Below are positions 19,785 through 59,100 of a stretch of 64,000 nt of DNA, in pieces. Position numbers and translations under genes: made by a program. The stretch is taken from positions 11,199,300 to 11,263,299 of the forward strand of contig OY979730.1 of assembly GCA_963855995.1 (NCBI GenBank), in the 5' to 3' direction. The stretch's first letter is position 1. Every line of letters begins with the position of its first letter. Source of the stretch: Muricea muricata (Eukaryota; Cnidaria; Anthozoa; Malacalcyonacea; Plexauridae). The notes below the pieces were generated by a model. It ran no database searches and was not told the DNA's origin. It saw only the letters and a list, made by a program, of their open reading frames with translations.

Positions 19785-19824
19785 GTTTTTGCGCGGTGTG
19801 TTTGTTAAATTGACAGACTATGTA

Positions 19825-23720: not shown

Positions 23721-23730
23721 TTTGTTTCAT
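23713..23730 (-). promoter_or_regulatory. Upstream ORF overlapping the GPCR 3 start codon
   Basis: On the minus strand ATGAAACAAAATGCTTAA begins 10 nt before the GPCR ATG and stops just inside the gene, as in the other three paralogues. Confidence 0.45.
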
Positions 23731-26606: not shown

Positions 26607-26616
26607 TTTGTTTCAT
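26599..26616 (-). promoter_or_regulatory. Upstream ORF overlapping the GPCR 4 start codon
   Basis: Identical to the GPCR 3 upstream ORF on the minus strand (ATGAAACAAAATGCTTAA). Confidence 0.45.
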
Positions 26617-36400: not shown

Positions 36401-38804
36401 TTACCAGATGCATGATTAGTGGTACGTTTGACCTCGATACTATAATTTGCAATTATGACTTGACAGCCAAAAACAGGGCAAGTTCCAGCAAGTATGTTGA
36501 CATCTTGCAACAAACTTGTTCTCAACAAACCGATATCAGGATGCGTTCGCATGACTTGCGACAGCTTGTGGACGACAAGTCTGTTGGAAGTTGTCCACAG
36601 GCTTGCTGCAAGTTGTCAAAACTTGTTATCCACAGGCTGTGGGAGGAAACCAGAGTACCCGGAGAAAACCCACGACTTTTGGCAAAGCGTTGAGTAACTC
36701 TTCTCACGCAAGTGTCGTGATTTCGAAGTTAAATCGAACTATATGATCTTAGGCTTTAAAATACATCAAGTTTTTGCTCTTTGTAAATGCCATTTGCAAG
36801 AGTTTTACAAGATTTTTTCCTTTCAAATAGCCAGTCTTCCTAAGAAATGTCCCGAATTGAAAGACAGAACAAAAGAATCCAATGTGACCGTTGTGGCAGG
36901 ATCTTCGACCTCATTGTTATGCGAAGTTGTTAACTTGCCTTGCAAACAATACAGTGGCCCAAATCATTTTATGCTTGCTAAGCTTGTAAATGGCTCATTC
37001 CGTGATATTGGCGTTGTTAAAAACCATTATGGAAGAATAGACAAAGGGAATGGGATTTTGTTGATAAATTTCACGATCGTTAATGCGGAGAAAAATGACA
37101 GCGGCATATACCGGTGCGATTTTATTTACAACAATAATTGGCTCTGTGCCAGACATCCTCATAAAATGTATAACGTTAAAGGTATGTTAAAGCCGTCGTT
37201 AAATTTAAAGGGGTACATATGATATCGCTATCATAATCTTGAACTATTTGTTTAATGGCCTACCGTGTGCGTGTAGGGAAATATTTTCTCATTTTTTCTG
37301 TTAATTTTTTCTTAGAGACTTTTCATATTTTACAGTTCTATCATGTTATTTGAAATCTAATATCATTTAATGTTTCAAGTGATTTAAAAACCAATAAGCA
37401 GATGCTTGAAGTGTCTCCAGCATGTACGGTGTAAAAATATACATCCAGACGACGTCGGTAATATTGGTTTTGTATTGGTTTCACTAAAACAAATCGTCAT
37501 ATTGTTCACGTGACGCCCTGCTTGTGGACACGTGACATGCATCAGAGATGCATGTCAAAAATAACCCAAGATGGCAGTCAGCCTGCAACTTTAATGATAT
37601 CTGAATCGAGATATCTCAAAAACTAAACGACATTTGAAGAAGCTGTAAAATAGTTTAAGATGTTCTTCCACATAAGACAGACTAAATAAGACTTCGTTGA
37701 TATTTACTATATACTACATAACTCTCAATTGATTTTTTTTTCTCTTTTCACAGTTGTTGCTCCTTCTGAGGTGCACAAGAAGCAGCCAAATTTACTGGTG
37801 GTCATTGCAGTGAGTGTTGCAGGAGCTCTTTCTGGTTTGGGCTTGGTACTTTACGTCTGCCATTTAAGGAAGAAATTAAAAGCCCAGTTGTACGGTAAGG
37901 AACGGATCGGCGCAACTTGTCAAGTCGCAACGAGCTTGTCAATTTCATCAAGTTGCAACAAGTGTGTTAAAATCAGTCTTGTTGCAACTTCTCATCTGCA
38001 GACTTGTTACAACTTGTTGAAACAACTTACAGCAAGCCTGTGGATGACAAGTTTTGACAACTTGCAACAAGTCTTTTGACAACTTGCAACAGACTTGTCG
38101 TCAACAAGCTGTCACAAGCCATGCAAACACATCCTGATATCGGCTTGTTGATAACAAGTCTGTAGCAAGATGTCAACAGACTTGTTGCCCCTTTTTTGGC
38201 TGCGTACAAGTCTTTCAAATTTATATATTTTTCATTTTTACGTGTAGTCAACTGTCCTGATGATTTACCGGAGCTTCGCTGGGATGTGTTCGTATCTTAT
38301 AGCAGTCACGATTTCGGATGGGTCGATAGTCTCTGCCAAATGCTGGAACAACCCCCGTTTAATCTCACCGTATGTTTACATCAAAGGGATTGGGAATTAG
38401 GTCGAAGTGTGGTGGACAACATGGTAGATTCAGTGTACTGCAGCCACAAAACTTTGATAATCGTTTCGAAGAACTATGTCCGAAGCGATTACTGCATGCA
38501 GGAACTACAGATAGCTATGCATAGCGAGATCGCGTCGGAACTCGTGCGAAGAGAGAGAATAGTTTTGATCAAAATCGATGATGTTTCCATGCATTGCTTG
38601 CCGAGGATTATCAGACAGAAGTCTTACCTAGATTGCTCGGATCCTGAACACGCGAGGCATTTAAAAACGAACTTACTGCGGGTTTTGCCAAGGCGCGAGA
38701 CTGTGGAAGAACAACCGTTGCAAGATTTTGATCAGCAAAGTTCTGATGGTAATAATGCCAGCGGCAGCGGTCAAATGTCTTTGGAACAATTGCATGTCAC
38801 GTGA
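33488..38804 (+). CDS. Ig-TIR transmembrane receptor (IL-1R-like), three Ig domains
   Basis: Second innate-immunity-type receptor. Exons 33488-33539, 34585-34866, 36119-36421, 36831-37181, 37754-37894 and 38248-38804 give 561 residues, all introns phase 1. Exon 1 is a signal peptide (LAGFLFLHFAFVVL); it is the least certain exon. Ig1: VIKCLP, LNWPT, YECVI. Ig2: YLPCFITG, VVWYKN, YSCKAT. Ig3: LLCEVV, YRCDF. Membrane segment LLVVIAVSVAGALSGLGLVL, then basic residues. TIR: box 1 WDVFVSYSSHDF, box 2 CLHQRDWELG, CMQELQIAMH, box 3 region KSYLDCS. The TIR is clearly paralogous to that of the receptor at 11205, but the acidic tail is replaced by a Ser/Gln-rich one. One more Ig exon than receptor 1. 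A partial recent copy of the TIR exon lies at 50992. Confidence 0.85.
34340..34545. repeat. CTTGTTGCAAC element
   Basis: Contains AATATCAGGATGTGTTTGCA, GTCAACAGACTTGTTGC and CAAGTTGCAACAAGCCTG; ends 40 bp before the first Ig exon. Confidence 0.78.
34985..36085 (+). repeat. 116-bp minisatellite, about 9 copies
   Basis: TTCCATAATGTCTCTGACCA recurs near 35051, 35167, 35283, 35399, 35517, 35622, 35737, 35846 and 35960. Units also hold TTCTTATTACATGTCCATAT and CAATCTTCCTTCATCTTCTC. Pyrimidine-rich on the sense strand; it fills the intron before Ig exon 2 and stops 33 bp before that exon. Confidence 0.95.
36463..36645. repeat. ACAGCCAAAA / CTTGTTGCAAC element
   Basis: Starts ACAGCCAAAAACAGGGCAAG and includes ACCGATATCAGGATGCGTTC. 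In the intron after Ig exon 2. Confidence 0.78.
37910..38210. repeat. CTTGTTGCAAC element, near full length
   Basis: Runs from CGCAACTTGTCAAGTCGC to the terminus TTTTTTGGCTGCGTAC, with ACATCCTGATATCGGCTTGT inside. Lies between the membrane and TIR exons. Confidence 0.82.
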
Positions 38805-39740
38805 GGGGGGAAGGAGCCGGCTGAGCAAGGAGTCATAGAGTAAATGGGAAAATCTTACAACTAGCGAGAGAATAGAAGTTTTGTGCAAGGCTGAGCTGTG
38901 AGGTCAGTACGTAAGCGGAATCAGTCATTGCACGTAAAAAAATCCAGCCCAGAGACGGTGGCTTAAAAACGGGTTGACTTAACCCCCAGCTGGGGCTGGT
39001 TGTTCAAAGCTGGGTTGGCACTAATAAAATTTAACCCAATATTTCAGTATTTGTACTTCTACACATCAGTTTATTTTAAAACTTTACAAATCAAAACTAC
39101 TATTGCTCCCAGACAAGATTTTTTAAGAAATATCTCGCAATACTATCAACAAGCTACTGGAAAGTTCGGAAAGAAATTTTACGTTAACCCAGGGTTAAGC
39201 TAACCGGCTTTTGAACAGCTGGTCCCAGGCTAACTCAAAATTCAAAGCAAATTTTCCAAAAGCTTATTTGTAAGCTGGGAAATATTTTTTCATAAATCGT
39301 GCCTGGGTCGATTGTTGTTTTCTTGTCTCGCGTTTTTTTAAAGAAATGGTTATATTGAAATACATTGAAATGGTTATCAGACTGTATGCACCTTTGAACC
39401 GACTGGCTTGATCAGTATTATAACTCTTGAACAAAATTGTAAGCTGGTGTTATTTCTGCTGGATTCTGTGGTCTTTTAGAAACTACAACTGTATACTGAC
39501 TGCAAGCTTGCATGTAAAAAGTTATCCGAAAAAGATTTACTGATATTGGTCAAGTCTTGTAAACACATGAACGAGGTTGTAAATTAAATGTTAAGCGAAA
39601 ATTACAACGGAGTTATGCTTTTCATTATTTATTAATTTCACATTCATTTCGCATCATGAGAGATGATCTACACTACTTTAATCAAAATCAAGATCAAGAT
39701 AACTTTATAAATTTAGAGTGTTAGTTTGTATAGCTCATCA
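38805..39740. other. 3' flank of Ig-TIR receptor 2 (duplicated at 51371)
   Basis: Intergenic. Matches 51371-51680 with one MITE inserted here and absent there. From about 39600 it matches the 3' flank of the intact VWA gene (52800-52910: TTTATTAATTTCACAT, GAGATGATCTACACTA). No gene. Confidence 0.6.
38990..39232. mobile_element. MITE with CTGGGGCTGGTTGTTCAAA ends
   Basis: Left CTGGGGCTGGTTGTTCAAAG and inverted right CTGGGACCAGCTGTTCAAAA. 243 bp, non-coding. The paralogous flank at 51540-51565 runs straight through without it, an empty site. Confidence 0.8.
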
Positions 39741-39745
39741 GTTCG

Positions 39746-39996
39746 TCATGTCATTAGTGACATGTAGTAATAATTGCAACGATACTTGAGGGATTTCCTT
39801 GCTTGGTATTTGTTTGGATCGATTTTCTGCGATGCTGGTTGAAAAACGTATTCGAAATGGTTGTTTTTCTCCACTCGTTTTTCTCCTACGTTTAGTCTCT
39901 TCAGCCTTTTCGCGCTTTCTAGTGTTTTCCTCTGATCATCCGACTGTCCATCAGTCACAAGAAAGACAATTCTTCTTGTCCTTGAAGGGCCAGAGA
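39746..39996 (-). pseudogene. Truncated VWA-domain exon
   Basis: Homologous to the last exon of the intact VWA gene at 53006-53322. Starts at a good acceptor and reads RIVFLVTDGQSDDQRKTLES, then jumps to a segment like the C terminus (YVFQPASQKIDPNKYQARKS). About 35 residues of the domain core (the part reading FVVAVGSLGQRAIYEMANVA in the intact gene) are missing. No upstream VWA exons or signal exon are found on this side; the tandem array lies there instead. Unlike the intact gene it still has Asp in TDG. Probably dead. Confidence 0.65.
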
Positions 39997-40487
39997 CTAT
40001 AGTGAATGTAAAATAATGGACTGACATGAGCGTCTAGTATAGCCGGCAATTTGTGATAATATATTTCTCTTGATTTGCATAAACTTTAACTTTGATTTTC
40101 TCGACTTATTTATTTTCATTTCACTAAAATTGCACTTTTACAATCCAATTAGAACATTCGCGTCGATGTTGTATCAGATATACAACTCTCACACAGGCAC
40201 GTAGCCAGGGGGGAGCCGAGGGAGCAGCGCCTCCCCCCCCTTTCGTTAATACAGAGGTTTAGCAAAGACGACACAACGCCTTTGACAACGCCAAAGCGAG
40301 GTAAAAACGATGTGGAAATGCCGTGAGCAAATCTGGAGATGGGCAATCGTGGCATTTTACGTCGCATTGACGTCACGTCTATTTGCTAAACCTCCCTAGT
40401 ATTTAACGCAATAGGCGCATCAAACCTATCATAATTATTAGTATCTGCAGGGCTCCCTCCCTTTGAAAGTTCTGGCTACGTCCCTGA

Positions 40488-42081
40488 CCAAGCCTATTAT
40501 TACATGAATTATTGTGTCTTTAGTGTTTGAAAATGTTAGTGTAAGGGCTGCTGTATTGTTTTCAGAGATTTTATGTCTTTGGTTAAATAGGAACAAATTT
40601 TGTCATTATTTAACCAAGCCTATTATTACACGAATTATTGTGTCTTTAGTGTTCGAAAATGCTATTGTAAGAACTGCTGTATCATTTTCAGAGATTTTAT
40701 GACTTTGGTTAAATAGGAACAAATTTTGTCATTATTTAACCAAGCCTATTATTGCACGAATTATTGTGTTTTTTAAGTGTTTAAAAATGTTATTGTAAGG
40801 TCTGCTGTATTGTTTTCAGAGATTTTATGACTTTGGTTAAATAGGAACAAATTTTGTCATCATTTAACCAAGCCTATTATTACACGAATTATTGTGTCTT
40901 TAGTGTTTGAAAATGTTATTATAAGGACTGCATGTATTGTTTTCAGAGATTTTATGAGTTTGGTTAAACATGATCAAATTTTGTCATTATTTAACCAAGC
41001 CTATTATTACACGAATTATTGTGTCTTTAGTGTTTGAAAATGTTATTATAACGATTGAGATTATTGTTTTCAGAGATTTTATGACTTTGGTGAAATAGGA
41101 CCAAATTTTGTGATTATTTAACCAAGCCTATTATTGCACGAATTATTGTGTCTTTTAAATGTTGGAAAATGTTATTATAAGGGCTGCTGTATTGTTTTCA
41201 GAGATTTTATGACTTTGGTTAAATAGGAAAAAATTTTGTCATTATTTAACCAAGCCTATTATTACACGAATTATTGTGTCTTTAGTGTTTGAAAATGTTG
41301 TAAGAACTGCTGTATCATTTAAGAGATTTTATGACTTTGGTTAAATAGGAACAAATTTTGTCATTATTTAACCAAGCCTATTATTACACTAATCATTGTG
41401 TCTTTAGTGTTTGAAAATGTTATTGTAAGAACTGCTGTATCGTTTTCAGAGATTTTATGACTTTGGTTAAACATGATCAAATTTTGTCATTACTTAACCA
41501 AGCCTATTATTACATGAATTATTGTGTCTTTAGTGTTTGAAAATGTTATTGTAAGAACTGCTGTATCGTTTTCAGAGATTTTATGACTTTGGTTAAATAG
41601 GAACAAATTTTGTCATTATTTAACCAAGCCTATTATTGCACGAATTATTGTGTTTTTTAAGTGTTGGAAAATGTTACTATAAGGACTGCATGTATTGTTT
41701 TCAGAGATTTTATGACTTTGGTTAAATAGGAAAAAATTTTGTCATTATTTAACCAAGCCTATTATTGCACGAATTATTGTGTTTTTTAAGTGTTTGAAAA
41801 TGTTATTATAAGGACTGCATGTATTGTTTTCAGAGATTTTATGAGTTTGGTTAAACATGATCAAATTTTGTCATTATTTAACCAAGCCTATTATTATATG
41901 AATTATTGTGTCTTTAGTGTTTGAAAATGTTATTGTAAGAACTGCTGTATCGTTTTCAGAGATTTTATGACTTTGGTTAAATAGGAAGAAATTTTGTCAT
42001 TATTTAACCAAGCCTATTATTGCACGAATTATTGTGTTTTTTAAGTGTTTGAAAATGTTATTATAAGGACTGCATGTATTG
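40488..42081 (+). repeat. 127-bp satellite array, block 1
   Basis: About 12 monomers: ACCAAGCCTATTATTACACG, AATTATTGTGTCTTTAGTG, TTTGAAAATGTTATTGTAAG, ACTGCTGTATCGTTTTCAG and AGATTTTATGACTTTGGTTA. Two variant classes alternate, ending AAATAGGAACAAATT or AACATGATCAAATT. Confidence 0.95.
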
Positions 42082-42690
42082 TTTTCTCCTACGTTTAGTC
42101 TCTTCAGCCTTTTCGCGCTTTCTAGTGTTTTCCTCTGATCATCCGACTGTCCATCAGTCACAAGAAAGACAATTCTTCTTGTCCTTGAAGGGCCAGAGAC
42201 TATAGTGAATGTAAAATAATGGACTGACATGAGCGTCTAGTATAGCCGGCAATTTGTGATAATATATTTCTCTTGATTTGCATAAACTTTAACTTTGATT
42301 TTCTCGACTTATTTATTTTCATTTCACTAAAATTGCACTTTTACAATCCAATTAGAACATTCGCGTCGATGTTGTATCAGATATACAACTCTCACACAGG
42401 CACGTAGCCAGGGGGGAGCCGAGGGAGCAGCGCCTCCCCCCCCCTTTCGTTAATACAGAGGTTTAGCAAAGACGACACAACGCCTTTGACAACGCCAAAG
42501 CGAGGTAAAAACGATGTGGAAATGCCGTGAGCAAATCTGGAGATGGGCAATCGTGGCATTTTACGTCGCATTGACGTCACGTCTATTTGCTAAACCTCCC
42601 TAGTATTTAACGCAATAGGCGCATCAAACCTATCATAATTATTAGTATCTGCAGGGCTCCCTCCCTTTGAAAGTTCTGGCTACGTCCCTG
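42082..42690 (-). pseudogene. Second copy of the VWA exon fragment and flank inside the array
   Basis: Near-identical duplicate of 39879-40487 at an offset of about 2204 bp. Contains only the start of the VWA exon (42085-42200, VFLVTDGQSDDQRKTLESAK) and its upstream flank, and runs into satellite monomers on both sides. Part of a 2.2-kb tandem duplication that continues to about 44185. Confidence 0.75.
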
Positions 42691-45600
42691 ACCAAGCCTA
42701 TTATTACATGAATTATTGTGTCTTTAGTGTTTGAAAATGTTAGTGTAAGGGCTGCTGTATCGTTTTCAGAGATTTTATGACTTTGGTTAAACATGATCAA
42801 ATTTTGTCATTACTTAACCAAGCCTATTATTACATGAATTATTGTGTCTTTAGTGTTTGAAAATGTTATTGTAAGAACTGCTGTATCGTTTTCAGAGATT
42901 TTATGACTTTGGTTAAATAGGAACAAATTTTGTCATTATTTAACCAAGCCTATTATTGCACGAATTATTGTGTTTTTTAAGTGTTTAAAAATGTTATTGT
43001 AAGGTCTGCTGTATTGTTTTCAGAGATTTTATGACTTTGGTTAAATAGGAACAAATTTTGTCATCATTTAACCAAGCCTATTATTACACGAATTATTGTG
43101 TCTTTAGTGTTTGAAAATGTTATTATAAGGACTGCATGTATTGTTTTCAGAGATTTTATGAGTTTGGTTAAACATGATCAAATTTTGTCATTATTTAACC
43201 AAGCCTATTATTACACGAATTATTGTGTCTTTAGTGTTTGAAAATGTTATTATAACGATTGAGATTATTGTTTTCAGAGATTTTATGACTTTGGTGAAAT
43301 AGGACCAAATTTTGTGATTATTTAACCAAGCCTATTATTGCACGAATTATTGTGTCTTTTAAATGTTGGAAAATGTTATTATAAGGGCTGCTGTATTGTT
43401 TTCAGAGATTTTATGACTTTGGTTAAATAGGAAAAAATTTTGTCATTATTTAACCAAGCCTATTATTACACGAATTATTGTGTCTTTAGTGTTTGAAAAT
43501 GTTATTGTAAGAACTGCTGTATCATTTAAGAGATTTTATGACTTTGGTTAAATAGGAACAAATTTTGTCATTATTTAACCAAGCCTATTATTACACTAAT
43601 CATTGTGTCTTTAGTGTTTGAAAATGTTATTGTAAGAACTGCTGTATCGTTTTCAGAGATTTTATGACTTTGGTTAAACATGATCAAATTTTGTCATTAC
43701 TTAACCAAGCCTATTATTACATGAATTATTGTGTCTTTAGTGTTTGAAAATGTTATTGTAAGAACTGCTGTATCGTTTTCAGAGATTTTATGACTTTGGT
43801 TAAATAGGAACAAATTTTGTCATTATTTAACCAAGCCTATTATTGCACGAATTATTGTGTTTTTTAAGTGTTGGAAAATGTTACTATAAGGACTGCATGT
43901 ATTGTTTTCAGAGATTTTATGACTTTGGTTAAATAGGAAAAAATTTTGTCATTATTTAACCAAGCCTATTATTGCACGAATTATTGTGTTTTTTAAGTGT
44001 TTGAAAATGTTATTATAAGGACTGCATGTATTGTTTTCAGAGATTTTATGAGTTTGGTTAAACATGATCAAATTTTGTCATTATTTAACCAAGCCTATTA
44101 TTATATGAATTATTGTGTCTTTAGTGTTTGAAAATGTTATTGTAAGAACTGCTGTATCGTTTTCAGAGATTTTATGACTTTGGTTAAATAGGAACAAATT
44201 TTGTCATTATTTAACCAAGCCTATTATTACACGAATTATTGTGTCTTTAGTGTTTGAAAATGTTATTATAAGGACTGCTGTATTGTTTTCAGAGATTTTA
44301 TGACTTTTGTTAAACATGATCAAATTTTGTCATTATTTAACCAAGCCTATTATTGCACGAATTATTGTGTTTTTTAAGTGTTTGAAAATGTTATTATAAG
44401 GACTGCATGTATTGTTTTCAGAGATTTTATGAGTTTGGTTAAACATGATCAAATTTTGTCATTATTTAACCAAGCCTATTATTATATGAATTATTGTGTC
44501 TTTAGTGTTTGAAAATGTTATTGTAAGAACTGCTGTATTGTTTTCAGAGATTTTATGACTTTGGTTAAATAGGAAGAAATTTTGTCATTATTTAACCAAG
44601 CCTATTATTACACGAATTATTGTGTCTTTAGTGTTTGAAAATGTTATTATAAGGACTGCTGTATTGTTTTCAGAGATTTTATGACTTTTGTTAAACATGA
44701 TCAAATTTTGTCATTATTTAACCAAGCCTATCATTACATGAATTATTGTGTCTTTAGTGTTTGAAAATGTTATTGTAAGAACTGCTGTATCGTCGTTTCA
44801 GAGATTTTATGACTTTGGTTAAATAGGAACAAATTTTGTCATTATTTAACCAAGCCTATTATTACATGAATTATTGTGTCTTTAGTATTTGAAAATGTTA
44901 TTGTAAGGACTGCTGTATTGTTTTCAGAGATTTTATGACTTTGGTTAAATAGGAAGAAATTTTGTCATTATTTAACCAAGCCTATTATTACACGAATTAT
45001 TGTGTCTTTAGTATTTGAAAATGTTATCATAAGGACTGCATGTATTGTTTTCAGAGATTTTATGAGTTTGGTTAAACATGATCAAATTTTGTCATTATTT
45101 AACCAAGCCTATTATTATATGAATTATTGTGTCTTTAGTGTTTGAAAATGTTATTGTAAGAACTGCTGTATCGTCGTTTCAGAGATTTTATGACTTTGGT
45201 TAAATAGGAACAAATTTTGTCATTATTTAACCAAGCCTATTTTACACGAATTATTGTGTCTTTAGTGTTTGAAAATGTTATTGTAAGAACTGCTGTATTG
45301 TTTTCAGAGATTTTATGACTTTGGTTAAATAGGAAGAAATTTTGTCATTATTTAACCAAGCCTATTATTGCACGAATTATTGTGTTTTTTAAGTGTTTGA
45401 AAATGTTATTATAAGGACTGCATGTATTGTTTTCAGAGATTTTATGAGTTTGGTTAAACATGATCAAATTTTGTCATTATTTAACCAAGCCTATTATTAT
45501 ATGAATTATTGTGTCTTTAGTGTTTGAAAATGTTATTGTAAGAACTGCTGTATTGTTTTCAGAGATTTTATGACTTTGGTTAAATAGGAAGAAATTTTGT

Positions 45601-47866
45601 CATTATTTAACCAAGCCTATTATTACACGAATTATTGTGTCTTTAGTGTTTGAAAATGTTATTATAAGGACTGCTGTATTGTTTTCAGAGATTTTATGAC
45701 TTTTGTTAAACATGATCAAATTTTGTCATTATTTAACCAAGCCTATCATTACATGAATTATTGTGTCTTTAGTGTTTGAAAATGTTATTGTAAGAACTGC
45801 TGTATCGTCGTTTCAGAGATTTTATGACTTTGGTTAAATAGGAACAAATTTTGTCATTATTTAACCAAGCCTATTATTACATGAATTATTGTGTCTTTAG
45901 TATTTGAAAATGTTATTGTAAGGACTGCTGTATTGTTTTCAGAGATTTTATGACTTTGGTTAAATAGGAAGAAATTTTGTCATTATTTAACCAAGCCTAT
46001 TATTACACGAATTATTGTGTCTTTAGTATTTGAAAATGTTATTATAAGGACTGCATGTATTGTTTTCAGAGATTTTATGAGTTTGGTTAAACATGATCAA
46101 ATTTTGTCATTATTTAACCAAGCCTATTATTATATGAATTATTGTGTCTTTAGTGTTTGAAAATGTTATTGTAAGAACTGCTGTATCGTCGTTTCAGAGA
46201 TTTTATGACTTTGGTTAAATAGGAACAAATTTTGTCATTATTTAACCAAGCCTATTTTACACGAATTATTGTGTCTTTAGTGTTTGAAAATGTTATTGTA
46301 AGAACTGCTGTATTGTTTTCAGAGATTTTATGACTTTGGTTAAATAGGAAGAAATTTTGTCATTATTTAACCAAGCCTATTATTACACGAATTATTGTGT
46401 CTTTAGTGTTTGAAAATGTTATTATAAGGACTGCTGTATTGTTTTCAGAGATTTTATGACTTTTGTTAAACATGATCAAATTTTGTCATTATTTAACCAA
46501 GCCTATCATTACATGAATTATTGTGTCTTTAGTGTTTGAAAATGTTATTGTAAGAACTGCTGTATCGTCGTTTCAGAGATTTTATGACTTTGGTTAAATA
46601 GGAACAAATTTTGTCATTATTTAACCAAGCCTATTATTACATGAATTATTGTGTCTTTAGTATTTGAAAATGTTATTGTAAGGACTGCTGTATTGTTTTC
46701 AGAGATTTTATGACTTTGGTTAAATAGGAAGAAATTTTGTCATTATTTAACCAAGCCTATTATTACACGAATTATTGTGTCTTTAGTATTTGAAAATGTT
46801 ATTATAAGGACTGCATGTATTGTTTTCAGAGATTTTATGAGTTTGGTTAAACATGATCAAATTTTGTCATTATTTAACCAAGCCTATTATTATATGAATT
46901 ATTGTGTCTTTAGTGTTTGAAAATGTTATTGTAAGAACTGCTGTATCGTCGTTTCAGAGATTTTATGACTTTGGTTAAATAGGAACAAATTTTGTCATTA
47001 TTTAACCAAGCCTATTTTACACGAATTATTATGTCTTTAGTGTTTGAAAATGTTATTATAAGGACTGCATGTATTGTTTTCAGAGATTTTATGACTTTGG
47101 TTAAATAGGAACAAATTTTGTCATTATTTAACCAAGCCTATTATTACACGAATTATTATGTCTTTAGTGTTTGAAAATGTTATTATAAGGACTGCATGTA
47201 TTGTTTTCAGAGATTTTATGAGTTTGGTTAAACATGATCAAATTTTGTCATTATTTAACCAAGCCTATTATTATATGAATTATTGTGTCTTTAGTGTTTG
47301 AAAATGTTATTGTAAGAACTGCTGTATCGTTTTCAGAGATTTTATGAGTTTGGTTAAATAGGAACAAATTTGTCATTATTTAACCAAGCCTATTATTACA
47401 CGAATTATTGTGTCTTTAGTATTTGAAAATGTTATTGTAAGGACTGCTGTATTGTTTTCAGAGATTTTATGACTTTGGTTAAATAGGAAGAAATTTTGTC
47501 ATTATTTAACCAAGCCTATTGTTACACGAATTATTGTGTCTTTAGTGTTTGAAAATGTTATTATAAGGACTGCATGTATTGTTTTCAGAGATTTTATGAG
47601 TTTGGTTAAACATGATCAAATTTTGTCATTATTTAACCAAGCCTATTATTACATGAATTATTGTGTCTTTAGTATTTGAAAATGTTATTGTAAGGACTGC
47701 TGTATCGTTTTCAGAGATTTTATGACTTTGGTTAAATAGGAACAAATTTTGTCATTATTTAACCAAGCCTATTATTACACGAATTATTGTGTCTTTATAG
47801 TGTTTGAAAATGTTATTGTAAGGACTGCATGTATTGTTTTCAGAGATTTTATGACTTTGGTTAAAG
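42691..47866 (+). repeat. 127-bp satellite array, block 2, with higher-order repeats
   Basis: About 41 monomers. Diagnostic variants recur in step: ATCGTCGTTTCAG at 44791, 45172, 45806, 46187, 46566 and 46947, and the short CCTATTTTACACG form at about 45236, 46251 and 47008. This gives higher-order units of 8 monomers (about 1015 bp) and 6 monomers (about 758 bp). Confidence 0.95.
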
Positions 47867-48060
47867 ACTATGCAGTGTGTGGACATGAAACCTTCCTCAC
47901 TGACTGTTCGTTTGGCAAACCTTCCTCACAGGTGATACCCGCATACCCGTGGCTTTTTTACAAATCTGGTGATAGCTTCGCCATTATCGAATTGTTTGGC
48001 TGTAAATTTGCTAAAACTTCCTAACATGATAATCTGTTGGATTTGATTTGGTGAATATTA
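47867..48060 (+). repeat. Non-satellite spacer, copy 1
   Basis: GACTATGCAGTGTGTGGACA to GGTGAATATTATGAGA, inside the array. Repeated almost exactly at 49602-49801, with a more diverged relative near 55145-55245. Frame reads AVCGHETFLTDCSFGKPSSQ followed by a possible GTGATA donor; whether it is an exon remnant is unclear. Confidence 0.85.
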
Positions 48061-49601
48061 TGAGATTTTATGACTTTGGTTAAATAGGAACAAATTTTGT
48101 CATTATTTAACCAAGCCTATTATTGCACGAATTATTGTGTTTTTTAAGTGTTGGAAAATGTTACTATAAGGGCTGCTGTATTGTTTTCAGAGATTTTATG
48201 ACTTTGGTTAAATAGGAACAAATTTGTCATTATTTAACCAAGCCTATTATTACACGAATTATTATGTCTTTAGTGTTTGAAAATGTTATTATAAGGACTG
48301 CATGTATTGTTTTCAGAGATTTTATGAGTTTGGTTAAACATGATCAAATTTTGTCATTATTTAACCAAGCCTATTATTACACGAATTATTGTGTCTTTAG
48401 TGTTTGAAAATGTTATTGTAAGAACTGCTGTATCGTTTTCAGAGATTTTATGACTTTGGCTAAATAGGAACAAATTTTGTCATTATTTAACCAAGCCTAT
48501 TATTACACGAATTATTGTGTCTTTAGTATTTGAAAATTTTATTGTAAGGACTGCTGTATCGTTTTCAGAGATTTTATGACTTTGGTTAAATAGGAACAAA
48601 TTTTGTTATTATTTAACCAAGCCTATTATTGCACGAATTATTTTGTTTTTTAAGTGTTGGAAAATGTTACTATAAGGGCTGCTGTATTGTTTTCAGAGAT
48701 TTTATGACTTTGGTTAAATAGGAACAAATTTGTCATTATTTAACCAAGCCTATTATTACACGAATTATTATGTCTTTAGTGTTTGAAAATGTTACTATAA
48801 GGACTGCATGTATTGTTTTCAGAGATTTTATGAGTTTGGTTAAACATGATCAAATTTTGTCATTATTTAACCAAGCCTATTATTACACGAATTATTGTGT
48901 CTTTAGTGTTTGAAAACGTTATTGTAAGGACTGCTGTATCGTTTTCAGAGATTTTATGACTTTGGTTAAATAGGAACAAATTTTGTCATTATTTAACCAA
49001 GCCTATTACTACACGAATTATTGTGTCTTTAGTGTTTGAAAATGTTATTATAAGGACTGCATGTATTGTTTTCAGAGATTTTATGAGTTTGGTTAAACAT
49101 GATCAAATTTTGTCATTATTTAACCAAGCCTATTATTACACGAATTATTGTGTCTTTAGTGTTTGAAAATGTTATTGTAAGGACTGCATGTATTGTTTTC
49201 AGAGATTTTATGACTTTGGTTAAACATGATCAAATTTTGTCATTATTTAACCAAGCCTATTATTACATGAATTATTGTGTCTTTAGTGTTTGAAAATGTT
49301 ATTGTAAGAACTGCTGGATCGTTTTCAGAGATTTTATGACTTTGGTTAAATAGGAACAAATTTTGTCATTATTAAACCAAGCCTATTATTACACGAATTA
49401 TTGTGTCTTTAGTATTTGAAAATTTTATTGTAAGGACTGCTGTATCGTTTTCAGAGATTTTATGACTTTGGTTAAATAGGAACAAATTTTGTCATTATTT
49501 AACCAAGCCTATTATTACACGAATTATTGTGTCTTTAGTATTTGAAAATGTTATTGTAAGGACTGCTGTATCGTTTTCAGAGATTTCATGACTTTGGTTA
49601 A
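48061..49601 (+). repeat. 127-bp satellite array, block 3
   Basis: About 12 further monomers between the two spacer copies, so the spacer and array were duplicated as a unit. Confidence 0.95.
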
Positions 49602-50930
49602 AGACTATGCAGTGTGTGGACATGAAACCTTCCTCACTGACTGTTCGTTTGGCAAACCTTCCTCACAGGTGATAGCCGCATACCCGTGGCTTTTTTACAA
49701 ATCTGGTGATAGCTTCGCCATTATCGAATTGTTTGGCTGTAAATTTGCTAAAACTTCCTAACATGATAATCTGTTGGATTTGATTTGGTGAATATTATGA
49801 GATGCCCTAATCTTGCTAGCTGATACTGGACCGACTCCTTCCCCTCGAAGTTAGCTTTCAATTTTGTTCACTACTTTGAAACCGATATGTAAAATAGAAA
49901 TTATTTTTTGGTATGCAGGCTTGTCTATTGACTGCCGTTGATTACTGTCTGATATTTTTACGGTTAAACAAGAGCAAAATAATTGTTAAAATAGGCTTTG
50001 TAAAGTCAGAGCTATCTGAACGCAAACGTTGTGTTCCAGATTCAATCTATAACAAGGGTGCTAATCTGAAATTAGAACTGACTTGAACTGCCATAATTAA
50101 TATGGTACGACATACTATAATATAATACCGATGTAAAATTTTGCCTGGAAGAGTGAATGAGAAAGCAGCTCTGGTTTTGTAATAAGAGGTATTTATTCGG
50201 CAGTTTCTCGAAAAAAATAAGGTTAGTTGATTTCTATGCATTATTAGTAGAATACTATACCCGTATACTATTGCAAATGCTGTCATTTCATTGGCTGCTC
50301 TATTTGGTATCTACCGAGGAGTAGACAGATGCTAAGCAGAGATAAATAAAGAAAGGACAGACATTTTGCTCTTCCCGTACTTTGCGTTGTTCCGGTGTTC
50401 TGGTGTTCCTGCTGTTATTAATAGCCAATTTTTGTTGTTCCGGAATTTCACTGTTCCGGTATTTCGTGTTCCGGTGTTCCGTTACAAAAAAATGGAAATT
50501 CGCGGTTTTGATATAACCGTGCCGTTGTAAAAAGAGGACTGGGCGCTATAGAAAACAATATGGCGGTTTTAAGGAAAAAAATTTAAAATACTTGCACTTA
50601 TATTATTTTGAATAAGATTGTATTAAATCGGTTATATTCATTGGATATTCTCTGCCCTCCAACATGTCAACGCTTTGGATGGGTGATGTATGTTTATACA
50701 TTGGTTTTAAATTATATTTTGTATGCTACGTAATATATTATGCCATTATGGAATAAATTCAGATGCAAGCACGTGGAAATCTAGTTTATTTAAATTGTAT
50801 ATTTCAGCTTGACACTTACATGGATGAACAGTTTGTTAAGGCTGCATTTGCCTCTGCTGGCCATGCAGTTATCAGCGTTAAAATCATAATTAATAAAATC
50901 ACTGGGTAAGATTGAAGGATTAGATTGACT
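49602..50930 (+). repeat. Segmental duplicate of the TRNAU1AP upstream region
   Basis: Matches 55145-56460: ACTGGACCGACTCCTTCCCC, TCATTTCATTGGCTGCTCTA, GAGGACTGGGCGCTATAGAA. It holds the presumed promoter, a CCGGTGTTCC-type short repeat and the first two exons of TRNAU1AP. Similarity is high and rises toward the exons. Confidence 0.9.
50664..50905 (+). pseudogene. Truncated copy of TRNAU1AP exons 1 and 2
   Basis: Exon 1 (50664-50687, MSTLWMGD) and exon 2 (50808-50905, LDTYMDEQFVKAAFASAGHA and on) keep intact splice sites and frame, but the gene ends there: the next sequence is a minisatellite and then a piece of TIR exon. It encodes only the first half of RRM1. If the promoter works, a short or chimeric transcript could be made. 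Confidence 0.85.
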
Positions 50931-50944
50931 GATTAGCAAGAGAC

Positions 50945-50991
50945 TTATATGAGAGTTGATGAGAGTTGACAAGCGAGAGTTTGTATTTGTT
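50945..50991 (+). repeat. GAGAGTT minisatellite at the duplication junction
   Basis: TATGAGAGTTGATGAGAGTT then GACAAGCGAGAGTTTGTATT. Lies exactly between the TRNAU1AP fragment and the TIR fragment. The same repeat is in the matching TRNAU1AP intron at 56515. Confidence 0.85.
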
Positions 50992-51370
50992 AACATGGTG
51001 GATTCAGTGTACTGCAGCCACAAAACTTTGATAATCGTCTCGAAGAACTATGTCCAAAGCGATTACTGCATGCAAGAACTACAGATTGCCATGCATAGCT
51101 TCGGAACTCGTGCGAATAGAGAGAATAGTTTTGATCAAAATCGATGATGTTTCCATGCATTGCTTGCCGAGGATTATCAGACAGAAGTCTTACCTGGATT
51201 GCTCGGATCCTGAACATGCGAGGCATTTAAAAACGAACTTACTGCGGGTTTTGCCAAGGCGCGAGACTGTGGAAGAACGACCGTTGCAAGATTTTGGTCA
51301 GCAAAGTTCTGATGGTAATGATGCCAGCGGCAGCGGTCAAATGTCTTTGGAACAATTGCATGTCACGTGA
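50992..51370 (+). pseudogene. Truncated, frameshifted copy of the TIR exon
   Basis: About 96 percent identical by eye to the last 390 bp of the receptor 2 TIR exon (38417-38804), stop included, and the similarity continues into the 3' flank. An 8-bp deletion at about 51099 (CATAGCTTCGG against CATAGCGAGATCGCGTCGG) breaks the frame. Boxes 1 and 2 and all Ig exons are absent. Confidence 0.88.
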
Positions 51371-53005
51371 GGGGGGAAGGAGCTGAGCAAGGAGTCATGA
51401 GGTAAATGTAAAAATCTTACAACTAGCGAGAGAATAGAAGTTTTGTGCAAGGCTGAGCTGAGGTCAGTACGTAAGCGAGATCAGTCATTGCACGTAAAAA
51501 AATCCAGCCCAGAGACGGTGGCTCAAAAGCGGGTTGACTTAACAAACACTTAACCCCCAGGTTTACTCAAAATTCAAAGCAAAATTTTCCAAGAGCTTAT
51601 TTGTAAGCTGGGAAATATTTTTTCATAAATCGTGCGTGGGTGGATAGAAATTTTCTTGTCTCAAGTTTTTAAAATAAAATGGATGTATTGAATGGATGTA
51701 CACAAACTAACAGGGGACGGTTGTCGGCAAGGTGGATAAAGTTATCCACCGAGTAGCGACTTTTTCAAACGTCCAAAAATTGTTGATTTACTGGAATGTT
51801 CAAGTGTGGTGTTTAGCGTTTTAAAGTTGAAGGGGGAACTTATAATTTGGCCAAAGTATATTAGTATTATGGCATTCAAAAGCATGTTTAAGACAGGATA
51901 AAAATCACTATCCAGTGGATAGCACTATCCATCCTTCGTACAACCGACCCCAGTGCGTTAAATTTTAATCTGGGAATAACGTTAAACCATGCAGGTCTGA
52001 TGCAGCTTTATCGCTGAATCATTGATTTCTTTCATTGTATAATACAGTAATTTGTTATTTCTGCCTGACTGTTTGGTTCTGTACTCTCGCAAACTTCATG
52101 GTGTATAGAAAAAACTGAACAAATTTGAAATCGCTTTCAACGTCGCGAAGCGGCTTGAAATATGGAGTCTTTTTTAATGTAGATTGCTTGGGTACTTATG
52201 TTGTAGAATGAACGAAAAAATTTTGAAATTTAAATGCTTACAACCGGGGGGGGGGGGTGCGTCTGAAATTGGAAGGCTTTGAGTCGGTAGGTATAAAATT
52301 TGTTAGGTGTTTTATTGCTGTTCAAAATTTCAAGAGATTTGCTCGAGTTTAAGTTCTTCCAAACGCCACACGAACTTGTATTTTTCTAGATAAGTTTTTT
52401 TTCAAGAAAAGTTCTAATTTTAATTGATGTCTCTTGGGAGTTGTATTCAAATTAGGTAAATTAAACATGCAGAAAGCTAATTTTGCTCAAATTATGGAAC
52501 TTTGCGCGATTGAAATTTTGAACAGCAATACAACACCCGACATATTTTCCACCTACCAAGTCAAAATTACTATCATTGTTTATTCTACATTATAAGCACC
52601 CAAACAATCCTTTCTAATAAAAAATTCGTACATTGAGGCGTTTCACGAAGTAGAGAGCGATTTCAGATTTGTTCAGGGTTTTTTTATGTACCCTGTACAT
52701 CAATGTACTGACAGAGCTCGCATGTAAGAAATTATCCGAACAAGATTAACTGATAATGGTGAAATTTCGTAAACATATAATGGAGGGCAGGCGGTGTAAT
52801 TCAATAAGCGAAAATAACAACAAAGTTTTGATGTTCATTATTTATTAATTTCACATTTTTTTGCATCATCAGAGATGATCTACACTATTTTAATCAATGT
52901 CATAATCACATTTAGAAGAATTGTATGAATTTTGAGTAGTTTAGTTCCAATAAGTTCGGTGATGCGTTCCAGCTGGGTCTGTTTGGACGCAGTTTTCGAT
53001 TCGCC
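51371..53005. other. Intergenic region between TIR fragment and VWA gene
   Basis: 51371-51680 matches the flank of receptor 2. A MITE lies at 51715. Beyond 52700 it resembles the flank of the truncated VWA exon. AATAAA on the minus strand at 52846-52841 could end the VWA transcript. A poly-G tract lies at about 52246. No gene. Confidence 0.55.
51715..51957. mobile_element. GGTTGTCGG..GGATAAAGTTATCC MITE
   Basis: Ends invert: left GGTGGATAAAGTTATCCACC and GAGTAGCGACTTTTTC, right (inverted) GGATGGATAGTGCTATCCAC and TGGATAGTGATTTTTA, both next to GGTTGTCGG/GGTTGTACG. Related fragments at 31022, 32640 and 53396. Confidence 0.75.
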
Positions 53006-54676
53006 TTAACTGCAAAGAGGTTTCAGAGGTTTCTTTGCTTTGTATCGGTTGTGATCGATTTTCTCTAAAGCCAAATCAAACACGTATCCGAGATCGCTGT
53101 TTTTGTAAACTTGGAAAACGTGTTGCTCAGCTGGTTCACTTGCGACATTCGCCATTTCGTAAATTGCTCGTTGTCCAAGGCTTCCAACAGCGACGACAAA
53201 AATTTCCGAATTCTTAATATTATTCTTCAGCCTTCTCGCGTTCTCTATTGTTTTCTTCTGATCGTTTGATTGTCCACCCGTCACGAGAAGGACCTTTTTT
53301 TGTTTTACGCATCCCGGGACTCCTAAACATGTGAATCGATGTGTACTTAGTAGCTATGCTATACTTAACAGAGGGGTATAGGAATTCTAAACCCCTGGGT
53401 CGGTTCTACGAAAGCCGGATAGCGCTATCCACTGGATAGTGATTTTTTCGCCTGCCGCAGAAAGGCATAAAAAACAATTACACCAGAGATATTGAACTCG
53501 CAAAAGATAAAAGTGACTTTAACTCGAAAATGCTGAACTTTAACATGTGTTTTACCAGTTACTGAACTTGTTTAGAAAGTTTGAGAAAATCACTGTATGT
53601 AACTGCGTGGGTCTAAAAATTACGATACAAACTTTTTAATAGTTTTTCAGCTTCTTCCAATCCTGCAGCGGTATTTGCACCCGAACCAGGATAGGAGATT
53701 GCGTTCATTTTTTGACTTGCTTGGTAGAAACGTAGGAAGGGAAAGTTCATTTTTGCACTTGAGGAATAAGTGACCCCAGCGTAATAGCAGATATATTGCT
53801 TGGGTTTTTCGCATATTCTCATCACTTTTGTGATAGCCTTTTTTCCCTCGTCAAACTCGCACTGACCAATGGAGCCAGATCCATCCAACACAATAACAGT
53901 GTATTCGTATATCAAGGCTCTTTTACTGACAATGTGGGAATGTGGTCGAAGTGCCGGTATGAAGCGTACAAAATTGTCCAAAATACTTTGTGCGGTTGTC
54001 TGGGGAGAAGGGATTTTCTGCAGTCCTATAATATACAAAATATTAATGAGTATGTGCGAAATTAAATATTACTATTGCAACACAATTTACGTTTGAGGGG
54101 GAAGTCTTTGAGGGCGAAGTCAACAAATTATATCTTATTTGCGATCTTGCGGCCTTATTTTCAAAAGCAAACCATTATCAGAAACGATAAGCTTTTAGTG
54201 ATTTTTATTTCCGGTTGATAGCGTACAAAATTAAATTGCGTAAAATACTTTTTGCTGTCTCTTGTACAGGAGGGGTACTATTCAGTTCTATATGTATAAG
54301 ATAAGTGAAAAGAATAAAAATGAGTGAGGACCTTTTATAGGAGAATGATAAGGGCGTTCTTTAAGCGCGTTATCCAGTATCACTAACTTTAATGAATATA
54401 TCAAAGTTCTGATAAGTAATTTGAAGAATTTAAAAACGTAGGTAAAAAATTATTTGTATTAGTAAATATGTGTCGTGCCATGTCTACTGTTGTGAGTTGC
54501 CGATTATATAGTTTCGTGCAATAAATGACAGACTTACTTTGGTAAATCGGTGCATTTGGATTGGAGGGTAATGGTGTCGGCTGTGTCAGTTTAGGAAGTC
54601 TCCAAAATGTTTGTTGACTATACTTCGGCAGAATACTGAAGAAAATCAGGAAGGATACCAGTGGAATCCAGTTCAT
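53006..54676 (-). CDS. Secreted single-VWA-domain protein
   Basis: Minus strand, three exons: 54676-54538, 54025-53633 and 53322-53006; phase-1 introns; 282 residues. Exon 1 is a signal peptide (WIPLVSFLIFFSILP) plus a Pro-rich spacer. Exons 2 and 3 form one von Willebrand A domain: VIVLDGSGSIG (MIDAS DxSxS), SGANTAAGLEEA (MIDAS Thr), VLLVTGGQSNDQKK, IFVVAVGSLGQRAIYEMA. In most VWA domains the third motif is TDG; here Asp is replaced by Gly, so metal binding may be altered. The exon 2 donor (GTTTGT) is weak. Such domains mediate protein contacts in matrilin- or collagen-like matrix proteins. A degenerate relative of its last exon is at 39746-39996. Confidence 0.8.
53396..53545 (+). mobile_element. 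GGATAGCGCTATCC element, uninterrupted copy
   Basis: GGTCGGTTCTACGAAAGCCG, GGATAGCGCTATCCACTGGA, GAACTCGCAAAAGAT and TTAACTCGAAAATGCTG in one piece, lying in intron 2 of the VWA gene. It is the reference for the copy split by the foldback element. Confidence 0.75.
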
Positions 54677-56197
54677 GGTTCACTTTCTTGTTTTCTCGTC
54701 GCTTATCTTCTTGATATAAAGTTCCTCCAGACCTATGCGGCGTAATAATGAAAATATGATAGATGGTCGCACCATTTTATGTGTTCTGTCCTTGGTGCGT
54801 TTCAGCTCAAAGGAAGTCCATACGGTAAATCCCAAAAGTGCATGCCATCCAGAGATAGAACAACTTGTTAAGACATGTCATTCATATAACCATTTCATAT
54901 GGGTTTTTGGCCGTTTTCGAACGCAAATCTCAACTGAGGGAAGTCGATGTGGCCACTTGTACAATGTGTAGATTTGGACTTGTCCATGATGCGTATTTAC
55001 ATAGGGTCTTCCTTCCATAACCTTGCATATTCATGTTTAATACATATTTAATTTGTTATATTCGAATGAGCAACATATTGCCGTGCTAAAGTATGGCCTG
55101 GCTTTAGGTTTAGCTTACAATAAGTAATAAACTGATAATTTTTACGTCCGATAGTTTCGCCTTACTCGAATTTTTCACCAGTGTAAGTTTGCTAAAATTT
55201 CCTAATCAGATAATCTGTTGGCTTTCATTTGGTGAATATTTTGAGATTCCCTATTGTAGCTAGCTGGTACTGGACCGACTCCTTCCCCTCGAAGTAAGCT
55301 TTCAATTTTGTTTACTACTATAAAACTGATAGGTAAAACTGATAGGTAAAACTGATAGACATTTTTTTTTGGTATGCAGGCTTGTCAATTGACTAACGTT
55401 GATTGCTGTCTGTATAGGGCTCGAGTTATGCGTATTTCTAGATGTATTTCTAGAAGCATCAGCGTATTGTGCTATAATGATATTTCTACGGTTCAACAAG
55501 AGCAAAATAATTGTTTCAGTTAAAATAGGCTTTGTACAGTCAGAGCTATTTCAACGCAAACGTTGTGTTCCAGATTCAATGTATAATAAAGGTGTTAATC
55601 TGAAATTGGAGCTGACTTGAACTGCCATAATTAACATGGTACGACATGCTATAATATAATACCGATGTAAAATTTTGCCTGAAAGAATGAATGAGAAAGC
55701 AGCTCTGGTTTTGTAATAAGAGGTATTTATCCGGCAGTTTCTCGAAAAAAATAAGGTTAGTTGATTTCTATGCATTATTGGTAGAATACTATACCCGTAT
55801 ACTATTGCAAATGCTGTCATTTCATTGGCTGCTCTATTTGCTATCTACCGAGGAGCAGACAGATGCGAAGCAGAGATAAATAAAGAAATAACAGACATTT
55901 TGCTCTTCCTATACTTTGCGTCGTTCCGGTGTTCTGGTGTTCCTGCTGTTATTAATAGCCAATTTTTGTTGTTCCGGAATTTTACTGTTCCGGTATTTCG
56001 TGTTCCGGTGTTCCGTTACAAAAAAATGGAAATTCGCGGTTTTGATATAACCGTGCCGTTGTAAAAAGAGGACTGGGCGCTATAGAAAACAATATGGCGG
56101 TTTTAAGGAAAAAAATTTAAAATACTTGCACTTATATTATTTTGAATAAGATTGTATTAAATCGATTATATTCATTGGATATTCTCTGCCCTCCAAC
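54677..56197. other. Region between VWA gene and TRNAU1AP (divergent promoters)
   Basis: The two genes are head to head about 1.5 kb apart, so this must contain both promoters. From about 55145 it matches 49700-50640. It holds a palindromic short element near 55700-55860 (TTTCATTGGCTGCTCTATTT) and CCGGTGTTCC repeats at 55925-56015. 54700-55140 is unique with no clear gene. Confidence 0.6.
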
Positions 56198-59100
56198 ATG
56201 TCAACGCTTTGGATGGGTGATGTATGTTTATACATTGGTTTTTAAATAATATTTTGTATGCTACGTAATATATTATGCCATTATGGAATAAATTCAGATG
56301 CAAGCACGTGGAAATCTAGTTTATTTAAATTGTATATTTCAGCTTGACACTTACATGGATGAACAGTTTGTTAAGGCTGCGTTTGCCTCTGCTGGTCATG
56401 CGGTTATCAGCGTTAAAATCATAATTAATAAAATCACTGGGTAAGATTGAAGGATTATATTGACTGATTAGGGAATGTATATCTGATGTCAAGAACTAGA
56501 AGTAACAACAAAGTTGTATGAGAAGTGAGAGTTTGTATAAGTTTTCTCAACTCTCACGTCCTTGTTAAACGAGAACGAGAGTTGCATGAAAGTTGAGAAA
56601 CGAGAGTTTGTAAGAGAGTTTTCTCATCTCTCATGTCCTGGTCAAACAGACAAACCAGGTCCTCACATGGAACTGAAACTAAAATGACAACAAATTGTTT
56701 TTATTTTTCTCAGTACACCAGCTGGCTATTGTTTTGTGGATTTCCCGACTCCCAAGAATGCTGAAAATGCTTTGAATACATTAAATGGGATACCTGTGCC
56801 TGGAACAAACCCGGTTGGTACAGAAATAGAATTAAATTAAGGTTCTGTTCAACTAAAACTGATTCTAACCATAATACCTTTCAGGCTAAAAGATTTAAAC
56901 TAAACTGGGCATCTTATGGCAAAGAAACTCAGTCACAGTAAGTCATGTTTTGGCTATTACACTATAGTATATATAGATAATGCTGCCCAAACAGCATTAC
57001 CAAAATTTTAACAGTCAAATACTCAAATTAATTTTCACAGATTTCAGTGGGGTAAACTATAAATGATGACTCAGTCATGAGAGTGAATTAAATGTTAATT
57101 TTAATATGACTTGTTGCTTTTTTGCTGATGTACTTGTTGCAAGTTGTCAATTTACCGACTTGTTGCAACTTTTCGACAAATTGTAACAAACCTGTCAATT
57201 TCATCAAGTTGCAACAAGTCCGTTAAAATCAGGCTTGTAAGTTGAACTTGTCATTTGCAGACTTGTTTCAACTTGTTGAAACAACTTGCAGCAAGCCTGT
57301 GGATAACAAGTTTTGACAATCAACTTGCAACAAGTCTTTTGGCAACTTGCAACGGACTTGTCATCAACAAGCTGTCGCAAGCCATGCGAACACATCCTGA
57401 TATCGGCTTGTTGATAACAAGTCTGTTGCAAGATGTCAACAGACATGTTGAAACTTGTGTCTTGGGTGTGGCAATAAACATTGTTGAAAAATCTTTTTGC
57501 ATCATTCCTCCAACCAAAACATAAAAGTAAGTCCATGTGTTTTTTTAAAGGGGTCCAGAATTTTCTATTTTTGTTGGTGACCTCACTCCAGAAGTTGACG
57601 ATGCCGGATTACTGGTGAGCTGGAATGCTTTTCTTTCGTATGCACTTAAAATTTTATCCACTTTCTAAACAGCGTGAATTTTTCAAAGCTTGCAGATTGA
57701 TAGATAAAAATTTGGGTAAATATAAAAGTAATCATGAAGTAGTCTGTATATGTCATGTCAGATATCTCTTGATTTGCAGAAACTTCCACTTTTATTTTCT
57801 TCTATTATGTATTTGGTTTTTTGCTCAAAACACACTGTGCTGCAGGAATGTCTTTATTTGTATATTTTTAGAAATTCTTCCGTGACCGTTATCCCTCTTG
57901 CAAGGCTGCTAAAGGTTTGATACTTTGCTCTGTTTTGGCACTACCTTCCTTGGATTAGGTTGCTTTTCTGGCAGGGTAATATGTCAATGAGAATACTGGT
58001 ATTACCTAGGCCTAAACGTAGACTCAATGAACTGTAATAGTCATACACTGATACACAGCCTCACTCAGCCATTACACAGCATGCTTTCATATCTAAACCT
58101 CGCTATCAACAATAGCGCTGGAGTATACGTGATTGTCGTCTGAGTGGCCCTACTAACAGACACACTGTAATGTGCTGCTGAAGTAATTAGCATGTCTTAT
58201 TCTTTAGTTGTGATTGATTCTTCTGGTATGTCAAGGTATTAAACTGAATGATTTTTAAGTTGTTCAAATTCATATGATAATAAAATCTAGCATTTATCTC
58301 AGACAAAATATCCACGCAAATGTTTCCATGTTTATACTTATATATATTAGACTAAAACAAGCTTCCTTATAAATCTGCATGTTTATCTTATGACTTCTCT
58401 TGTAATGTGTTTAGAGGTTATGGCTTTGTACGCTTTTCGACCGAAAATGAACAAAAACGTTCTATGGTGGAAATGCAAGGTGCCCGCGGTTGTGGCGGGA
58501 AAGCAATACGGGTCAGCGTCGCTACGCCAAAAAAGTTAGTCAATTTTGTTAATTAATAGAAGTTCGTTTTCTTCCACACGCGCGCACGGCAAAAAAGAAG
58601 TTGCAAGCTGATTGTCAAAAATTATTATCCACAGGCTTACTGCAAGTTGTTTCAACAATTTATAACAAGTCTGACAAGTTGCAACAAGCCTGTTTTTAAC
58701 AGACATGTTGCAATTGGATGAAATTGACAAGTTTGTTGCAATGTTTTGGCAACAAGTTGCAACAGTGTTGGCTGTACGTCCCAGGTCAAACGAGGATGAA
58801 ACTTGATAAGAGTAACTGATAATCAAAGATTCCTTTAGTTTAACGAACACTCTCATCAGCTCTCGGCCTCATTTGACACGATGTGTTGTGATCATATGGC
58901 ACAAGAGTTCAATTTCGTTGAATCCTTGCTGCCATCATCTAAACAAGCTGCTATGCTAAAAACAGTCGTGTCTCCTACTGCAGGGTAACCAACGCACCAC
59001 CATCCTCGGGTACCAACACGACATATCCCACGGCCGGACAGCAATATCTACAGCAGTATCAACAATATCAACAGTACTACGCCGCATGGCAAGCCAGCTA

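Follow-up and report, generated by a model that had tools for sequence, protein, structure and literature searches.

Head-to-tail duplication of a block cutting a TIR receptor gene and TRNAU1AP in Muricea muricata, with divergence between the copies increasing toward a satellite array

Introduction

In a 64,000-nucleotide stretch of the genome of the anthozoan Muricea muricata (hereafter the window; positions 11199300-11263299 of contig C15, in a 453-Mb assembly with 74 contigs), the end of a gene for a receptor with immunoglobulin (Ig) and TIR domains, a gene with a von Willebrand factor A (VWA) domain and the start of TRNAU1AP are found twice in the same order. How did this arrangement arise, and why are its outer parts so similar in the two copies when the parts between them are not? 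The history that we favour, with a probability of roughly 0.6, is an old duplication in which gene conversion later made the two ends more alike, an effect that would fade toward a satellite array in the first copy.

The same block is present twice, head to tail

Comparison of the window with itself gave seven collinear direct matches in the same orientation (E values from 1e-6 to 0, identity of 71.4-96.1%), which pair copy 1 with the adjacent copy 2 (Table 1). The matches and the domain searches confirm that the order TIR tail, VWA, TRNAU1AP start is present twice and, together with the alignment of the blocks, support the tandem duplication that had been proposed from the sequence: the two copies are a head-to-tail duplication of the TIR tail, the VWA gene and the TRNAU1AP start. 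Copy 1 measures 12.5 kb owing to a 9.1-kb satellite, and copy 2 measures 5.5 kb. When a 401-base query spanning the junction was searched against the genome, its TIR part and its TRNAU1AP part matched only these two places among the matches listed best first. Copy 1 alone carries, at 38984-39223, an insert whose ends appear inverted by eye; copy 2 has a short remnant-like stretch at that spot.

On the left, the block starts within the TIR exon (38418); on the right, it stops within intron 2 of TRNAU1AP (after 56471). Because the ends of the duplication fall inside two genes, each copy has one whole and one broken end gene, the outer ones being whole and the inner ones truncated at the junction. 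The resulting order, namely whole receptor, block, TRNAU1AP stub, junction, TIR stub, block and whole TRNAU1AP, is the one found in the sequence. The original prediction had described the contents of the copies correctly (a whole Ig-TIR receptor, a truncated VWA and two TRNAU1AP exons in the first; a TIR tail, with whole VWA and TRNAU1AP genes, in the second) and had explained them by reciprocal loss. It had not mentioned the satellite array, the two nested duplications at its edges, the 8-base frameshift in the TIR tail of copy 2 or the graded form of the divergence. Such loss is unnecessary, since block ends inside two genes directly give a whole left gene in copy 1 and a whole right gene in copy 2. 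A block reaching from inside the TIR exon to inside TRNAU1AP intron 2 was duplicated head to tail, which left the outer gene copies whole and the inner ones as fragments. A duplication like this is an ordinary, known kind of event.

Two haplotypes placed end to end by the assembly might look alike, and the identity of the outer parts (91-99%) is within the allelic difference of some marine animals. This artefact is nonetheless very improbable: the inner parts are deeply diverged, the 55-base fragment at the junction matches neither parent base for base, and the locus lies inside a contig of 12.57 Mb.

The junction does not join two repeats

The two copies are separated by a fragment that contains three GAGAGTT words. 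In copy 2 the intron has the same minisatellite from about 56519 on, so the right-hand break lies in or beside it, and the claim that the junction falls within a GAGAGTT minisatellite also present in the TRNAU1AP intron is borne out. The recombination between repeats that had been suggested on this ground is unsupported as homologous exchange. The repeat is missing at the TIR breakpoint, where the nearest word, at 37720, is about 700 bases off and is the sole one in 37701-38900; non-allelic homologous recombination would require one repeat shared by the two parental breakpoints, with a hybrid of it at the junction, and this is not what we found. With the repeat at a single breakpoint, recombination from minisatellite to minisatellite was rejected. 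The minisatellite is also dispersed in the genome: the 401-base junction query gave at least 264 matches, and all but three of those listed fall on its minisatellite part. In the window, the best match of the junction fragment is at 14625-14663 (97% over 39 bases).

When the main junction was compared in register with both parents, no base common to the two was found. Because there is no shared base at the junction and no repeat at the TIR breakpoint, its features fit end joining or template switching better than homologous recombination. On our reading, the intron would have been broken at or next to its minisatellite and this end linked directly to the TIR exon, with no extended homology between them, by end joining or by template switching during replication.

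A very unlikely alternative is homologous recombination between direct repeats, with a later deletion across the junction; the repeats would be either the minisatellites or a dispersed repeat present at 37912-38187 and 57165-57450. The two copies of the dispersed repeat (88.1% identical) lie about 230 bases to the left and about 700 bases to the right of the breakpoints, the short matches between the breakpoint surroundings derive from it, and there is a minisatellite at the junction. The TIR breakpoint, however, has no minisatellite and the present junction has no dispersed-repeat sequence; moreover, this repeat occurs at 15 places in the window, so that its nearness is expected.

We also compared predicted DNA folding with that of shuffled sequences. 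The stretch 14618-14760 folded better than its shuffles (z -2.9), which is not clearly so for the junction (z -1.5) or the intron minisatellite (z -1.0), and we make no claim of hairpin fragility at the junction. We also rejected a TRNAU1AP-TIR chimera in which the TIR domain would work: the domain lacks its beginning and the frame breaks soon past the junction, the TIR frame that is open from 50953 stopping at 51144, after an 8-base deletion, instead of continuing through the domain. Only a short fusion could be read from this sequence.

Divergence between the copies increases toward the satellite

The divergence between the copies was measured in aligned blocks. Along the right arm it increases from the junction end to the satellite (1.4, 3.3, 6.4, 10.0, and 17.1%), and along the left arm from the outer end to the satellite (3.4, in coding sequence, then 8.7, 12.5, 21.0, and 28.6%); a small VWA exon block shows 18.6%. 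The 11 blocks do not fit a uniform rate (chi-square p 6e-31). In the outside blocks 60 of 1536 sites differ, as compared to 120 of 677 in the inside blocks (Fisher p 3e-25, the VWA exon block being in neither group), and the noncoding outside blocks alone, with 41 of 722 sites different, gave p 1e-12. Using 60-site bins, the trend has a Spearman coefficient of 0.82 on the right and 0.70 on the left (permutation p 0.0002 and 0.0018), and of 0.88 in the part of the right arm upstream of the TRNAU1AP start (0/5000 permutations). Because adjoining blocks differ only modestly (p 0.35, 0.01, and 0.009), this is a gradient and not a step. The uneven divergence that had been noted, with the suggestion of more than one event, is therefore upheld by both block and bin tests, in the form of a gradient.

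The TIR tail also speaks about age. Between the copies 13 of 378 sites differ, and 7 of the 12 in-frame differences are silent. With so few differences for a dead copy, the TIR tail can hardly be as old as the middle of the block, unless it was in use until lately. The ends of the block are segments clearly less diverged than their neighbours, which is the pattern expected from gene conversion, and gene conversion at the ends would be the simplest account of the gradient. It would have kept the block ends alike and weakened with nearness to the satellite, so that the middle retained its old divergence.

One unequal exchange between strongly different haplotypes, one with the VWA gene and the other with the satellite, would yield structure and divergence in a single event; the divergence would be old allelic divergence, highest at the structural difference as observed, and gene conversion would be superfluous. 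We regard this as unlikely, since the noncoding divergence beside the satellite (17-29%) is very deep for alleles within one species. Alternatively, a single duplication of uniform age may have mutated faster near the satellite, as a consequence of the satellite and its repeated rearrangement. The gradient does point at the satellite from both sides, and two nested duplications with microhomology lie at the array edges. This explanation is quite unlikely in our judgement, as it needs an approximately tenfold change of rate over about 1 kb. The share of transitions, 45 of 60 differences in the outer blocks against 66 of 133 in the inner blocks (55 of 120 when the VWA exon block is set aside), fits a greater age of the latter; misalignment would give the same result.

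Several points weigh against an old duplication evened out by gene conversion. Gene conversion is read here from the divergence between two copies within one genome, and faster mutation beside the satellite would give an identical gradient. The divergence values exclude the unalignable stretches between blocks, and one bin of the second left block, 18% different and beside indels, may be misaligned. The left gradient is partly coding, so that selection may add to it, and its noncoding part alone shows a weaker trend (0.63, p 0.027). Finally, when the TIR changes were polarised with the other TIR gene of the window, a weak outgroup at about 67% identity, 6 of 13 were assigned to copy 1 and 4 to the frameshifted copy 2, with 3 ambiguous; the frameshifted tail thus has no excess of changes over copy 1.

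A separate origin of the VWA genes, as an older pair than their flanks, is disfavoured by the gradual change in divergence and by the collinearity of all segments. Counting against this rejection, the match between the VWA sequences of the two copies (71% over 98 bases) is no better than that between copy 2 and a gene on contig C2 (71% over 140 bases). Because of this equality, over short stretches, the VWA pair itself is old. Six other VWA places were found in the genome, four on C5 and two on C2; they align with part of the query, at 38-63% protein identity. The 20 kb retrieved for the C2 pair contained no match to TIR or TRNAU1AP.

A satellite of probable foldback origin occupies the middle of copy 1

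The stretch of copy 2 that corresponds to the satellite holds VWA exons 1 and 2 and the beginning of exon 3. After the duplication, the first VWA exons of copy 1 would have been swapped for the satellite array, the edges of which would have grown further by microhomology duplications; the nested duplications at both edges copied pieces of the flanks. The TIR tail of copy 2, too, would have lost its reading frame after the duplication.

A 381-base satellite query gave at least 429 matches in the genome. We retrieved eight satellite sites, picked because the match listing showed both orientations there, and at all eight a plus array faces a minus array. The flanks that these sites have in common are mostly more than 92% identical (range 83-99%, matches of at least 100 bases). 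One complete palindromic element, on C12, measures 9905 bases, and 7-base target-site duplications were found at all three sites with both ends in hand (C12, C10, and C4). In L033, which holds most of the C12 element, there are no open frames of more than 120 residues. A further site (C15:328500) has one arm and a one-sided array, with 47 monomers within the 9 kb retrieved. Elsewhere in the genome the satellite family has long inverted repeats, internal tandem repeats and target-site duplications, which are the marks of a foldback-type transposon. The satellite unit is therefore the core of dispersed palindromic elements of this type (L026-L033, L042), with no large open frames in the copy examined. 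The arms of the element are absent from the window, so that its array does not itself qualify; we infer that it originated from such an element. The exact satellite pattern was found in no viral contig.

Might the satellite have caused the gradient? A foldback-derived satellite in one duplicate could act as a barrier to gene conversion, with identity decaying toward it on both sides; we put this forward tentatively, and think it rather doubtful. If it were true, the locus would preserve, as a natural gradient, the effect of a non-homologous block in freezing the divergence of the duplicates next to it.

Genes of the two copies and of the rest of the window

Pfam searches, for which the exon translations of VWA and of TRNAU1AP were joined manually into queries, identified TIR in copy 1 (PF13676, 8e-19) with Ig upstream of it (PF13927, 1e-7), RRM in TRNAU1AP (PF00076, 1e-12) and VWA in copy 2 (PF00092, 7e-21). 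In the copy-2 TIR tail, where an 8-base deletion breaks the frame, a fragment of PF01582 was recognised ahead of the frameshift (1e-5), and the piece past it gave no match. TRNAU1AP exons 1 and 2 are present in both copies (56198-56440 in copy 2), and the stub protein is identical to that of copy 2 over the 39 residues compared. The VWA remnant of copy 1 is under the Pfam cut-off (14.4 bits vs. 23.8, E 0.045) and still aligns with copy 2.

The preferred model of the intact VWA gene has 285 residues, with GTAATT/GTTTAG at the last intron and better splice sites by eye; a 291-residue variant is likewise open. Its product looks secreted. Within the matched stretch 39898-39967 / 53224-53293, at a position that we take to be the metal-site motif, the intact copy-2 VWA reads VTGGQS; TD stands there in the broken copy 1 and in the five relatives from C2 and C5 whose sequence extends over it. 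From this alignment the intact gene seems to have lost a metal-site aspartate.

The window genes are animal in kind (Ig-TIR receptors, VWA, and TRNAU1AP). A second Ig-TIR receptor gene is at 12356-15787, its TIR exon about 67% identical and with a GAGAGTT minisatellite directly ahead of it. A single-exon family, seven-helix-receptor-like by eye, occupies 16603-17712, 18652-19810, 22644-23726 and 25530-26612, in both orientations (80-91% alike, one copy degraded). At 524-7321 there is a gene that by eye resembles peroxidasin, with leucine-rich-repeat (LRR) and Ig-like frames as well as an open frame of 599 codons resembling a peroxidase. The dispersed repeat, of about 80-330 bases, includes 37912-38188 and 57136-57450 among its 15 places. 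No structured RNA reached the Rfam gathering score in 36000-64000. Outside the window, L034-L035 (C12:2727500-2741100) is a long tandem array of a YPVLYTLSYIPCLI-type repeat with frames open up to 1504 codons, probably a simple repeat.

Table 1. Coordinates of matches, copies and other features (window positions; for matches, copy 1 / copy 2).
Feature	Position	Strand or orientation	Basis and remarks
Match 1	38418-38983 / 50992-51543	direct	self-comparison, 93.6%
Match 2	39224-39359 / 51556-51692	direct	self-comparison, 86.9%
Match 3	39494-39696 / 52706-52908	direct	self-comparison, 78.1%
Match 4	39771-39868 / 53007-53104	direct	self-comparison, 71.4%
Match 5	39898-39967 / 53224-53293	direct	self-comparison, 81.4%
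Match 6	49708-49951 / 55150-55412	direct	self-comparison, 80.2%
Match 7	49950-50936 / 55478-56471	direct	self-comparison, 96.1%
Copy 1 of tandem duplication	38418..50936	+	self-comparison, alignment
Copy 2 of tandem duplication	50992..56471	+	self-comparison, alignment
Ig-TIR receptor gene (Ig, membrane, TIR exons)	36070..38803	+	open frames, Pfam Ig and TIR; TIR exon 38249-38803, limits by eye
Remnant of last VWA exon, copy 1	39771..39967	-	open frame with internal deletion; part repeated at 42101-42170
Nested tandem duplication, left satellite edge	39879..44290	+	99.1%; 5-bp microhomology TTTTC at junction
Satellite array	40487..49602	+	unit of about 126 bp, weak 381-bp higher order, 66 monomers counted; replaces 53294-55149 of copy 2
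Nested tandem duplication, right satellite edge	46322..49803	+	93.7%; 5-bp microhomology GAGAT at junction
TRNAU1AP stub, exons 1 and 2	50664..50905	+	exon comparison with copy 2
Junction, GAGAGTT minisatellite fragment (55 bases)	50937..50991	+	word search, alignment; sits where intron minisatellite 56519-56650 expected
TIR tail of copy 2	50992..51371	+	about 70% of exon, frameshifted; alignment, split open frames
Intact VWA gene, three exons	53006..54676	-	gene model; Pfam VWA
TRNAU1AP gene of copy 2	56198..59245	+	exons 1-4 modelled in one open frame; the rest seen as open frames only
GAGAGTT minisatellite, TRNAU1AP intron 2	56519..56650	+	word search

Comparison with known systems

This case shows one local duplication breaking two genes at once without reciprocal loss, in a neighbourhood of immune-receptor genes that includes further duplicates, and its two-sided gradient offers a compact test case of whether non-homologous inserts limit gene conversion between duplicates. 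Our search found no literature combining at least four of the five terms TRNAU1AP, TIR domain, von Willebrand factor, tandem duplication and cnidarian. Tandem duplication is pervasive in coral genomes, TIR-domain families included (PMC10236652); the sections consulted do not describe the present locus. As for the satellite, the Tetris foldback transposon of Drosophila virilis seeds satellite arrays (PMC4079207) and resembles the elements found here: both have long inverted repeats, and the tandem repeats inside them also occur on their own as satellite-like arrays. It differs in host, in its target-site duplications (8-10 bases vs. 7 here) and in its unit (220 bases vs. 126), and the window array, unlike Tetris, has no arms. 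A close parallel for the block itself comes from Drosophila yakuba, in which partial-gene tandem duplications and chimeric genes are reported (PMC5460883). There, as in Muricea, duplication boundaries inside genes leave fragments of these genes, and potentially chimeras, at the junction; unlike those duplications from population samples, the copies described here have diverged by up to 29%, with a gradient and with a satellite in one of them.

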